Assembly: GCF_016786325.1 (NCBI RefSeq)
Contig: NZ_JADWYU010000102.1
Coordinates: 1 to 64,000, forward strand
Reading direction: 5' to 3'
Source of the DNA: Frankia nepalensis
Lineage (GTDB): Bacteria > Actinomycetota > Actinomycetes > Frankiales > Frankiaceae
Length of the DNA stretch: 64,000 nucleotides
Shown here: positions 21,759-28,062 of the stretch, one piece after another
Layout: each line of letters opens with the position of its first letter
How positions within the stretch are numbered: the first letter of the stretch is position 1
Translations under genes and position numbers: made by a program
Notes under the pieces: model-generated
The model's database searches: none
What the model was told of the DNA's origin: nothing
Seen by the model: only the letters and a program-made list of their open reading frames with translations

Positions 21759-22121
21759 ATGCCGATCGCCACGCTGCGAGGCGTGACCCTGGACTGTGCC
21801 GATCCGCGGGCGCTGGCCCGGTTCTACCAAGAGATGACAGGCATGGAGCTGGGGTACAACGCCGACGGGTTCGTCGCCCTGACCGGCGGTTCTGGCTGTG
21901 ACCTGGGTTTCCAGCGGGTCGACGGATACCAGGCGCCGCGATGGCCCGGCCAGGTTGTGCCGCAGCAGTTCCACCTGGATCTCGGGGTCGAGGACCTTGA
22001 CGCGGCGGAGAAGCTGGCGCTGGGACTCGGCGCGGTCAGGCCGGATCACCAGCCCGGCGGCGACCGGTGGCGGGTGCTCCTGGACCCGGCCGGTCACCCT
22101 TTCTGCCTGGTCACCGGCTGA
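21759..22121 (+). CDS. VOC-superfamily (glyoxalase/bleomycin-resistance-like) protein
   Basis: 120 residues from ATG 21759, preceded by GAGGAGGAG; an ATG at 21738 in frame lies inside this purine run and is less likely. It shows two beta-alpha-beta-beta-beta units: GVTLDCADPRALARFYQEMT at the start, and QFHLDLGVEDLDAAEKLALG with VLLDPAGHPFCLVTG at the end. Metal-ligand positions (His of FHLDL and the C-terminal motif) are partly kept. Related proteins are glyoxalase-like lyases, dioxygenases or drug-sequestering proteins, and the substrate is unknown. Confidence 0.87.
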   Translation: MPIATLRGVTLDCADPRALARFYQEMTGMELGYNADGFVALTGGSGCDLGFQRVDGYQAPRWPGQVVPQQFHLDLGVEDLDAAEKLALGLGAVRPDHQPGGDRWRVLLDPAGHPFCLVTG

Positions 22122-22261
22122 CCACCGAACTGGCCCGAGGCCGCCTGGGTAGGTCTGGACCGCCTGCACCAGCAGCTCGGCCGGCCGCCGTCCGACGACA
22201 ACATACGCCGCCAGTAACGCTGTCCAGGCGGCGGCCCCGGCCCTGCGCCGGATGTGTCCAG

Positions 22262-22531
22262 TGGGCGACGCACGAGTTCTCGGTGCCAGCGCGGCAGGGT
22301 GGCAGGAGTGACGAGGAACGCCGACCAGCGCGGGCGGGGGAGTAGCTGCGCCAGCGTGGCCAGCAGCATCCGATCGGCCGGGCTGTACCGCGGCCGAGCA
22401 ATCTGCCGGCGCAGGACGGTCAACTGGTGGCGTAGGACGGCGATCTCGACGTCCTTCTCGTCGGGCCGATCTCCGAGGCCAGTGACTGTGAGCAGTTTGC
22501 GTACCATGAGGAATACGACAGTCGACACCAT
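22262..22531 (-). pseudogene. N-terminal fragment of an integrase-core (IS3/IS481-like) transposase
   Basis: From ATG 22531 the protein reads MVSTVVFLMVRKLLTVTGLG, DEKDVEIAVLRHQLTVLRRQ, SPADRMLLATLAQLLPRPRW and LVTPATLPRWHRELVRR. This is the well-known N-terminal segment of actinobacterial integrase-core transposases. After about 22270 homology shifts frame (WTHPAQGRGRRLD) and then stops, so the whole DDE catalytic core is missing. The right part probably replaced by the insertion or deletion that also placed the VOC gene. Confidence 0.7.
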
Positions 22532-24723: not shown

Positions 24724-25149
24724 ATGGATGATATTTCCGTGATCTCTTTCGCCTTTTATGGCCGCGTGTCGGCTGAGGAGAACGAGGATGTTTCCTCCTC
24801 GCGCAACTGGCAGCTGGCGCGTGCTCGGGAGCTCATCGAGCCGTACGGTGTCATCGTCGCCGAGTATTTCGACGTCGGGCAGGGTCGGTCGTTGCCCTGG
24901 AGGGGCAGGCCGCGGGCGAACGAGCTGCTGGTGGATCTTATGGACCCCGGTCGCGGCTTCGACGCGGTCGTCATCGGCGAGGCGCACCGGGCGTTCTACG
25001 GGTATCAGTTCGGCCTGGTGTTCGCGCTCTTCAGTCGGCATGGTGTGGGTTTGTGGATCCCCGAGCTGGGCGGTCCGGTCGATCCGAGTTCCGAAGCCCA
25101 CCGCCAGATCATGTCAGCCCTCGGAAATCTGGCGCAGGGTGAAAGCCTC
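24724..25149 (+). pseudogene. Serine recombinase, N-terminal catalytic domain (5' part of an IS-interrupted gene)
   Basis: These 142 codons encode a resolvase/invertase-type catalytic domain: FAFYGRVSAEENED with the nucleophile Ser16, the GEAHRAFYG arginine motif, and LVFALFSRHGVGLWIPELGG up to LGNLAQGESL. The gene is cut at 25149 by an IS4-type element. Joining this part to 26741 (dropping the IS and one target copy) gives ...QGESLHNTIRVRAAMAAQ, the normal family sequence, and an uninterrupted 551-residue protein. As it stands the ORF runs into the IS and ends at 25260 without DNA-binding domains. Confidence 0.9.
25138..25149 (+). repeat. Target-site duplication of the IS4-type element, left copy
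   Basis: GGTGAAAGCCTC is present here and again at 26729-26740, directly flanking the two inverted ends. A length of 12 bp agrees with IS4-family elements. The perfect match indicates a recent insertion. Confidence 0.9.
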
Positions 25150-26728
25150 AATGCCACTTCCGCTAATTTGATCAAGCTGCGGTCTGGGGTTTTGTCGGGT
25201 TGGCGAGTCGTATCGTGGGCGGTGAGTGGTGGCGGGTGCCGTGCTGGCCGGGTTTCTTGACCGGGTACTGGTTGTGGCGGGCGCGGCGGACGGCGTGGGG
25301 GTAGGTGCGTTCGCGGCGGGTGTTGAGCCGGGTCGGCCGGGTGATGTCGGCGGCGATCTCGTCGAGGGTGTGTGCGCGTTGGTCAGGGGGAAAAGGCCGG
25401 GTCGGTGGCGATCCGGTCCCGGATGATCCTGACGGTGCGTAGGAACCTGATCCGGTCGGGGTCGATCCCGGCGGCGGTCGCGGCGTGGCAGGTCAGGGCG
25501 CTGATGGCGTGGTGGGTGAGCAGGTAGCCCCAGATCTCCTGGTAGACGGTGTCAGGATGCTGGGAACGCAGGACTTTTCCTGGGCCGCGCAGGTAGGTCT
25601 TGAGCTGCCTGTTGCCGGTCTCGTGTTCCCAGCGTTGCTGGTACGCCCCGGCCAGTGCGGTCGCGGTCGCCTCGCGGGGGTCGAGGATGGTGGTGAGCAG
25701 GGCGATGACCTCGTGTTTCCCGTCGCCCTCGCGGTCGGGCACGTCGTATTCGATGAGGCGGGCGTAGCGGGCAGTCGCCGGGTCGAGCGGCTCGCCGGCG
25801 CGGGCAGCGGCCACCAGCGCGTCGCGTGCCTTCCCGGTGGCCTTCGGGTTGACCAGCACGGTCAGGTACGAACCGTCGGGCAACGCGCGCAGCGGGGGCA
25901 GCCGCAGGCCGGCCTTGACTCGCCACAGCAACGCGGCGCCGGTGTCCGTGGCCGTGCACCAGTCCGTCCAGGAGTAGAAGTTCCGGTCCGCGAGCAGCAA
26001 CCAGTCGGACGTCAGGCGGTGGTAGAGAGTCCGGGCCAGCGCCTGTTCGCTGGCGGGTCTCGCCCCGCTGGCCGGACCGAGCGCGGCCAGGACCGCGGCG
26101 TGCGAGGCGCACTCGGACACGGTCACCGCGCGGACCTTCGGCAGCGCCCCCGGCGCGCCGTCACGGCCGGCCGGCAGGCCGAACGCGGCGATGTTCTCCC
26201 TTGAGGCCGGGACATCCCACTCCAGCCCGTCGATGCTCATCAGCCGCCACCGGCCGAGGAACGCCCCAACCGTGTCCAGGTCGGCGACCGGCCCGGCGAC
26301 CTGACAGAACAGTTCGGCCAGCGGCGCCGAGCCGAGCCGCTGGCGGGCTTTCGTCAGCCCGCCCGAGGTCGGTTCCCACCGCGGCCCGACGACGTCGAGA
26401 TCGTCGAGCGTGGCGGCGAGCCGGCGGGCGACCGCCTCGTAGTCGTCGTCCGCGAACAGCGCGAGCGCCATCACGAAGTAGGCCGCGACCTGCGGTGGGA
26501 TCGTCGTGTCGCTGCGCCGGGCGTTCTTCCCCGTCGCCTCGATCGCCTCGTCGACCGCGTCACGCGGGACGAACGACGTCAGAACCCCCAGCGAGATCCA
26601 GTCCGTCAGCGGGCTACCCGCCACCGCCCCAGCGTCCGCCACACCCCCTGATCATGCCGCCAACCAGACAGAACCGCTGGAACCGACACACCCACCACCA
26701 TCAAGATCCAACTAGTGGAAGTGGCATT
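25150..26728. mobile_element. Complete IS4-family insertion sequence (1579 bp)
   Basis: The ends are imperfect inverted repeats: AATGCCACTTCCGCTAATTT on the left and, read inward, AATGCCACTTCCACTAGTTG on the right (the first 12 bases identical, then scattered mismatches). The element is flanked by 12-bp direct repeats and carries one minus-strand transposase. It sits inside a serine recombinase gene, and its removal with one target copy restores that gene exactly. Confidence 0.92.
25383..26642 (-). CDS. IS4-family transposase, probably frameshifted at its 3' end
   Basis: 419 residues from 26642. Catalytic region: LMSIDGLEWDVPASRENIAA (first Asp), DWLLLADRNFYSW (second Asp) and YQQRWEHETGNRQLKTYL, the Y-x2-R-x3-E-x6-K signature with the catalytic Glu. 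The frame stops at 25383 just after TTTTCCCCC. In the neighbouring frame the coding continues as DQRAHTLDEIAADITRPTRL, then NTRRERTYPHAVRRARHNQY, and ends at 25172 inside the inverted repeat. So about 66 C-terminal residues of the original transposase appear to be lost by a one-base insertion, or reached by slippage. Confidence 0.88.
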   Translation of the reverse strand: MADAGAVAGSPLTDWISLGVLTSFVPRDAVDEAIEATGKNARRSDTTIPPQVAAYFVMALALFADDDYEAVARRLAATLDDLDVVGPRWEPTSGGLTKARQRLGSAPLAELFCQVAGPVADLDTVGAFLGRWRLMSIDGLEWDVPASRENIAAFGLPAGRDGAPGALPKVRAVTVSECASHAAVLAALGPASGARPASEQALARTLYHRLTSDWLLLADRNFYSWTDWCTATDTGAALLWRVKAGLRLPPLRALPDGSYLTVLVNPKATGKARDALVAAARAGEPLDPATARYARLIEYDVPDREGDGKHEVIALLTTILDPREATATALAGAYQQRWEHETGNRQLKTYLRGPGKVLRSQHPDTVYQEIWGYLLTHHAISALTCHAATAAGIDPDRIRFLRTVRIIRDRIATDPAFSP

Positions 26729-26740
26729 GGTGAAAGCCTC
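26729..26740 (+). repeat. Target-site duplication of the IS4-type element, right copy
   Basis: Second copy of GGTGAAAGCCTC, immediately after the right inverted end. The recombinase reading frame resumes in register after it. Confidence 0.9.
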
Positions 26741-27970
26741 CACAACACGATTCGGGTTCGGGCCGCGATGGCGGCACAGACGAAGATCGAGGGCCGCTAC
26801 CTGGGTGGCCGTCCGCCCTACGGCTACCGGCTTGCCGACGCGGGTCCGCACCCGCACCCGGCGAAGGCGGCCGACGGCCGACGCCAGCACGTGCTGGCGC
26901 TGGACCCTGACACCGCCCCGGTCGTTCAGCGGATCTTCACGCTCTTCCTCGATGGCGTGGGGCTTTACCTTGTCGCCAAGACGCTGAACAGCGACGGGGT
27001 CGTCCCGCCGTCCGGCGCCGATCCGGCGCGTAACCGGCACCGCGCCGGCACTGCCTGGGGCAAGAGCGCCATCCGCGCAATCCTGGTCAACCCGCGTTAC
27101 ACGGGCTACCAGGTCTGGAACAAGCAGCACAAGGCACAGGTGCCACTCGACGCCAATGATGTCGAGTTGGGCCACAAGACTCGCATGCGCTGGAACAACC
27201 CCGACACCTGGGTATGGTCCGACCAACCCGCGCACCCGCCGATCGTCAGCCGAGAGACGTTCGTGGCTGCCCAGGAGCGGCTCCTCTCGCCCCCGACGAG
27301 GAAGCAGACCGGGCAGCGAGTGAAGGGGCAACCGGCCCACCTGCTCCAGGGCATCCTTCGCCACGAGGAGTGCGGGCTGCGCATGCAGGCCCGGCGAAGC
27401 CATGGTCACGTCTACTACTGGTGTGGGTATTTCAACGAGTACGCGCCGGCGGAGGCGGTCGATCATCCGGTGAATGTCCGTGTCTGTGAGGGCGCGATCG
27501 TCACCCAGGTCGATGCCTGGCTTGCGACCGTGCTCGACTCCGTCGGACAGGTAAAGATCGGCCTGGCGCGGTCTGCCGGTCCGGAAGACGCGCGGCTTCG
27601 TTCGATCATCGCCGAATGCGACCAGAAGCTGGCTTACTACCGGGCCGTGATCGAGGCCGGCGCGCAGGCATCCCTGGTCGCCCGCTGGGTCAACGAGGTC
27701 GAAGCGCGAAGACGCGAGGCGATCGAGGCGTTGGAGCGCCAGGCTCCCGGGCCACAGGCCGAGCAGCCCGCGGCGGCCATCGATTGTCAGGACATGGCCA
27801 GCAAGGCTGGGATCTACCGAAAGATAGGGCTACGTCTCAGCTACAGCCGCGTGACGAACAGGATCACAGCCCAGCTGGACTCGTGCTCACTGACCACCAG
27901 GCTGACACTGGCCACAGTGGGCCACGATGCGCCCGACAGTTCTCTAACTACTGCGAGTGAGGGACCGTAA
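26741..27970 (+). pseudogene. Serine recombinase, C-terminal DNA-binding part (3' part of the IS-interrupted gene)
   Basis: 410 codons continue the recombinase in register: HNTIRVRAAMAAQ, then GRYLGGRPPYGYRLADAGPH, TAPVVQRIFTLFLDGVGLYL, the recombinase domain with AIRAILVNPRYTGYQVWNKQ, a reduced zinc-ribbon region (ILRHEECGLRMQ...YYWC) and a coiled C-terminal section. This is the large-serine-recombinase family abundant in actinomycete integrative elements and prophages. Separated from its catalytic domain it cannot recombine DNA. The stop codon lies 7 bp from the 3' end of a convergent tRNA-Leu gene, as expected for an integrase next to its attachment site. Confidence 0.9.
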
Positions 27971-27977
27971 CCCTCCG

Positions 27978-28062
27978 TGTCCGAGGGGGGACTTGAACCC
28001 CCACGCCCGTTAAAGGGCACTAGCACCTCAAGCTAGCGCGTCTGCCATTCCGCCACCCGGAC
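27978..28062 (-). tRNA. tRNA-Leu (anticodon GAG)
   Basis: The minus strand gives an 85-nt class II tRNA. The acceptor strand GTCCGGG pairs with CTCGGAC (one G-U), followed by discriminator A. The D-arm begins TGGCGGAATGGCAGACGC. The anticodon stem CTAGC/GCTAG encloses loop TTGAGGT, anticodon GAG. A variable arm, TGCCCTTTAACGGGCG, and a T-arm with GGTTCAAGTCC follow. CCA is not encoded. It reads CUC and CUU codons. It marks the likely boundary between the rearranged island and the resident chromosome. Confidence 0.97.

Follow-up and report, generated by a model that had tools for sequence, protein, structure and literature searches.

A conserved +1 frame change, probably a programmed ribosomal frameshift, in the transposase of an IS4-type element of Frankia nepalensis

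Introduction

The review that defined the IS4 family names a single ORF and the absence of a frameshift as hallmarks of its transposases, the latter as a main one (De Palmenaer, 2008; PMC2266710). Members of the IS4 subgroup have -AATR ends, a target repeat of 10–13 bp, and a size of 1400–1650 bp (PMC2266710).

Trans-frame transposases are known from elements of the IS1/IS3 type. They are made from overlapping frames by programmed frameshifting, mostly −1 at A-rich sites, which links a DNA-binding part to the catalytic part. In bacteria, prfB (RF2) and the tsh gene of Listeria phage PSA shift by +1 at a sense codon followed by UGA, and CCC_UGA is the +1 site of the Listeria phage tsh genes (PMC5009743). 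In E. coli pheL, CCC_UGA shifts at 15%, and the preceding Phe is important (PMC5009743). CCC-U is a known +1-prone proline codon; structures show tRNA-Pro moving into the +1 frame on CCC-U (PMC7577736). The GeneTack survey lists DDE_Tnp_1 +1 clusters with A-rich sites (PMC3711429).

Here we describe an IS4-type element in a 64,000-nucleotide stretch of the Frankia nepalensis genome (the window) and compare it with these systems.

Results and Discussion

An IS4-type element interrupts a serine recombinase

An IS4-type insertion splits a serine recombinase within its catalytic domain; the features of the locus are shown in Table 1. The original prediction had described an element of 1579 bp whose ends are inverted and whose target site is duplicated perfectly over 12 bp. 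Both are present: the first 12 bp are the perfect reverse complement of the last 12 bp (15/16 over 16), and the target repeat occurs exactly twice in the window, at both borders of the element. The insertion is thus confirmed as real and exact, and it is ordinary as insertions go. The full-length element occurs once in its own 10.7-Mb draft assembly (398 contigs); the one further match of appreciable size there is a 69% relative on contig C351. The insertion may be recent, as had been proposed; a recent origin fits the single full-length copy and the unmutated target repeat. The predicted reversibility holds in a weak sense only, in that precise excision independent of the transposase can occur, if rarely, at any perfect target repeat, as is known for Tn10 and Tn5.

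Table 1. Features of the element and of the interrupted recombinase locus (window coordinates)
Feature	Position	Strand	Basis or remarks
Serine recombinase, 5' part (resolvase domain, GRVS)	24724..25149	+	PF00239, just under Pfam cut-off; homologue comparison
Target-site duplication, left copy GGTGAAAGCCTC	25138..25149		Exact repeat
IS4-type insertion sequence	25150..26728	−	1579 bp; delimited by its ends, its length and the 12-bp repeat at either side; contains a transposase matching PF13006 and NF033592
Terminal inverted repeat, left, AATGCCACTTCC	25150..25161		End comparison
+1-frame C-terminal tail with stop	25172..25384	−	70 aa from GAC, predicted pI 11.6; no in-frame start near junction
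Proposed +1 shift site UUU-UCC-CCC-UGA	25383..25394	−	CCC 25386–25388, UGA 25383–25385
Transposase frame-0 ORF	25383..26642	−	419 aa, GTG start, UGA stop; complete D138, D219, E341, Y-2-R-3-E-6-K
Terminal inverted repeat, right	26717..26728		End comparison
Target-site duplication, right copy GGTGAAAGCCTC	26729..26740		Exact repeat
Serine recombinase, 3' part (recombinase domain)	26741..27970	+	PF07508
tRNA-Leu(GAG), adjoins recombinase 3' end	27977..28062	−	Also found beside homologous recombinases

The 12-bp target repeats of three related elements (L044, L057, L087) and of the window copy resemble GGN8CC or similar, which suggests a target preference.

Joining the flanks without the element and one repeat gave an open recombinase frame (24724–27970) reading ...NLAQGESLHNTIRVRAAMAAQ, in the register that had been predicted. 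The recombinase relatives in the order are uninterrupted at the junction and agree with this joining, and in the reconstructed empty site the resolvase and recombinase domains share one frame, as in large serine integrases. The same prediction had the joining regenerate a conserved motif, QGESLHNTIRVR, and this part failed: homologues read KGERNRIKIRVR there instead. The position holds GGMSKGERNRIKIRVR or nearly so in 14/14 of the nearest homologues, against which the AQGESLHNTIRVR of the window is divergent. What the window shares with them there is confined to the register and the flanking IRVRxAMxAQ. At the IS target (25138–25161), consecutive residues of the window recombinase differ from those of its relatives (ESLHNT vs. 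ERNRIK).

ARAGORN placed a tRNA-Leu(GAG) beside the recombinase in 10/14 of the relatives' loci, as in the window. Actinobacterial tRNA-associated serine integrases likewise have resolvase and recombinase domains beside tRNA-Leu(GAG); the window recombinase differs from them in being interrupted by an IS. Because its homologues adjoin this tRNA, the recombinase is plausibly an island integrase, and the association supports such a role at a favoured site. The insertion may have frozen this island, as had been proposed. No att repeat that would mark the island limits was found: the 3' end of the tRNA has no second copy in the window, nor in the genome when searched with a 20-base pattern. Short cores, which are all that serine integrases need, would be missed in this way. 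At the same tRNA (window 27961–28005), the C-terminal part of recombinase relatives (L099, L111) is only about 44–55% identical, as if the tRNA-Leu site had been occupied repeatedly.

Upstream of the recombinase, the window contains a Mutator-family transposase remnant of which only the C-terminal part is left (PF00872; 22614–23110), a possible further transposase fragment (22094–22531), and, near the recombinase, a small P-loop protein resembling shikimate kinase/AAA (PF01202; 23108–23688). Elsewhere in the host genome, 27 tRNA genes lie within 3.3 kb of contig C357 (10141–13485; locus L151, 1141–4488), and unusual anticodons (Arg GCG, Leu AAG) are among them.

The transposase gene is split over two frames

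The transposase matched the IS4 domain models PF13006 (E 4e-24) and NF033592 (158 bits vs. a cut-off of 115). It has the D(60–110)D(100–150)E spacing (D138, D219, E341) and the Y-2-R-3-E-6-K signature (Y334, R337, E341, K348), and these residues are invariant or nearly so in 30 relatives. With the IS4 subgroup (PMC2266710) it shares the N-terminal IS4 domain, the DDE and YREK motifs, ends of the AATR type (AATG), the 12-bp repeat, and the size of 1579 bp. It differs from the subgroup in a coding sequence split by a conserved +1 frame change, with the conserved tail lying in +1 after UGA. By descent and motifs, the element is IS4, a variant that departs from the no-frameshift hallmark.

This split was missing from the original prediction. 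The frame-0 ORF ends ...GCC-TTT-TCC-CCC-TGA, and directly after its stop the +1 frame reads DQRAHTLDEIAADITRPTRLNTRRERTYPHAVRRARHNQYPVKK.... The original prediction would be complete if the element were an ordinary single-ORF IS4 whose transposase is the 419-aa protein and whose 3' region is irrelevant; this reading agrees with all catalytic motifs sitting in frame 0 and with the NCBI annotation of relatives; the gene models of plasmid copies end at the frame-0 stop. We regard this as very improbable, given that the conserved +1 tail is homologous to the in-frame C-termini of relatives. Reinitiation was also considered and rejected as a source of the tail: it cannot make it at ATG, GTG, or TTG, because the window copy has none of these in its +1 frame over the interval of −30 to +50 codons.

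The predicted fused transposase has 489 aa. A model of it built from a 19-sequence alignment reached a mean pLDDT of 79, and the best PDB matches of the model by fold were Tn5 transposase complexes; no PDB relatives were found by sequence. In the model, helices 400–413 and 419–434 are connected by a loop that contains the junction, and the rest of the tail is modelled at low confidence (pLDDT <50 from residue 438).

The tail and the junction are conserved among homologues

By tblastn, relatives as distant as about 45% identity proved to have the same tail, again out of frame with the body. We then surveyed junctions in genome, metagenome-assembled, and plasmid loci, scoring the tail by HMM, with a match of at least 40 bits taken as a confident tail. 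Among 47 non-redundant homologues with a confident tail, it was in +1 at the same site in 40, in frame in six, and in the third frame in one. The surveyed tail-bearing homologues came from Frankiaceae, Streptosporangiaceae, Streptomyces, Rhodococcus, Mycobacterium, Frondihabitans, actinobacteria outside the class, and Cupriavidus, whose element belongs by its NCBI name to the ISBvi1 family.

Pairwise pN/pS of the tail was 0.49 in the +1 frame and 1.17 and 1.32 in the other two; by this measure, the tail is under purifying selection in the +1 reading only. The locus thus shows both a conserved site and a conserved, selected downstream frame, as programmed +1 shifting demands. That the stop reflects decay or sequencing error, and the transposase is a pseudogene, could be argued from the short homopolymer junction, where indels are common, and from the several source genomes that are drafts. 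This explanation is scarcely credible: the same site recurs in single-contig genomes and in complete plasmids from different laboratories, the frame-0 ORFs of the homologues are otherwise open, the tail is selected in +1, and mobile copies are 99.6% alike.

The bases of UUU UCC CCC are 88–100% conserved over 40 aligned junctions, and most neighbouring bases are less so. The five C's are nearly invariant (97–100% at positions −2 to +2 of CCC). UUU was present at 33/39 scored sites and in 36/400 (9%) of the Phe codons elsewhere in the same ORFs (binomial P 6e-29, a nominal value that ignores the relatedness of the sequences). The codon after CCC was UGA in 25/39 and otherwise UCA, UCC, CUC, CUG, CGG, or CGC, and the base after CCC was always a pyrimidine (C or U) in the scored sites. 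In a close relative from Frankia torreyi (L042), C7 stands in place of C5 at the junction; this copy would require another kind of shift and is possibly a product of drift or a dead copy.

When 56 proteins were placed on a maximum-likelihood tree, +1 members appeared across its deep branches and in-frame members were scattered. Two in-frame elements (L057 and L068) group within +1 elements from Streptomyces, from which they differ by the loss of one base; L057 encodes in frame exactly the FSPGR junction predicted from a +1 shift in its neighbours. One finished single-contig genome has two copies with 99.56% identity over 1572 bp, and three other elements (L011, L044, L087) lie, like the window copy, between exact 12-bp repeats. 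Sequence comparison of this kind shows that split-frame elements have moved recently, and trans-activation by another copy may have played a part. Phage copies with the frameshift were sought as well; the sole phage match was the E. coli IS4, which is of the in-frame type.

A proposed programmed +1 shift at CCC-Y

These observations point to a programmed +1 ribosomal frameshift at CCC-Y, and we consider it probable that the IS4-type cut-and-paste transposase is a trans-frame protein. It also appears fairly likely that, in a major branch of the IS4 family, synthesis of the full-length transposase is under the control of an ancient and widespread programmed +1 shift at UUU-UCC-CCC-Y. In the proposed mechanism, most ribosomes would stop at the UGA after CCC and release a 419-aa protein with the whole DDE core. 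A fraction would shift by +1, the peptidyl-tRNA-Pro on CCC re-pairing with CCU (or CCC) during a delay at the next codon; GAC would then be read and the 70-aa basic tail added. This shift would yield the tryptic peptide IATDPAFSPDQR. The in-frame relatives and the basic composition of the tail suggest that the element requires it to bind its ends or bring them into synapsis, and that it helps to hold the DNA ends. The shift would keep the full-length transposase, and with it transposition, low, and the tail-less frame-0 product might act as an inhibitor. The element itself inserted into the tRNA-Leu-associated serine recombinase and interrupted it.

The host genome encodes tRNA-Pro(GGG). Downstream RNA structure gave no signal as a stimulator (mean fold z 0.12 over 38 sites), and no other conserved stimulator was detected at the shift site among the aligned junctions; programmed +1 shifting does not strictly require such a structure. 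CCC is followed by a sense codon instead of a stop at roughly one site in three, which weighs against the proposal. CCC makes up 34% of the Pro codons in these genes; being so common, CCC alone cannot explain the efficiency of the shift.

The same tail could be reached without a ribosomal shift if transcriptional slippage on UUUUCCCCC deleted one base in part of the mRNA; the tryptic peptide would then be IATDPAFPPDQR. The T-run and C-run are conserved at the site, the DNA of L068 is itself one base shorter, and poly-A/T slippage is the likely route in several other IS families (PMC3711429). The runs are nevertheless short (U4, C5) and variable, with only CCC in L024 (UCU CCC UGA) and C6 in L016, L062, and L071. 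CCC remains intact and in frame, and the direction is +1 in nearly all, where mixed directions would be expected under the criterion of PMC3711429. We consider slippage unlikely.

A −2 ribosomal shift on C-CCC-CC is less probable still. It would enter the same frame with one extra proline, yielding the peptide IATDPAFSPPDQR; on UCC CCC, tRNA-Pro can re-pair perfectly two bases back, and the five C's are the best-conserved bases of the site. L024 lacks perfect −2 re-pairing, yet its tail is in the same frame, and known −2 shifts are rare.

The +1 shift at CCC-Y that we favour resembles prfB and PSA tsh in moving by +1 at a sense codon before UGA, and PSA tsh has the same CCC_UGA (PMC5009743). 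It differs from both in that the gene is a transposase, UUU UCC precedes the site, a structural stimulator was undetected, and the UGA is often replaced by a sense codon. Like the IS1/IS3-type elements, it would make a trans-frame transposase; unlike them, it would shift by +1, the site being C-rich and lying beyond a complete catalytic domain, and would add a basic tail.

Implications for the IS4 family

Sequence comparison supports the conserved +1 frame change well, the mechanism proposed for it is plausible, and it is of more interest than the insertion itself. One small +1 cluster in the GeneTack survey may be related to the IS4-type site (PMC3711429). We found no account of an IS4 frameshift in the open-access literature; ISfinder and closed papers were outside this search, so priority is unproven.

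If the proposal is true, one of the stated hallmarks of the IS4 family would no longer apply to a large branch, and the C-terminus would be missing from many IS4 transposases as annotated. The site would be among the most widespread natural bacterial +1 sites after prfB. Natural bacterial +1 sites are few, and this one would offer dozens of variants for studying how CCC-Y slips, including UGA or sense codons after CCC and in-frame reversions. Transposition would be tied to the state of proline tRNA and, where UGA follows, to RF2, which would provide a testable link between the state of translation and transposition.
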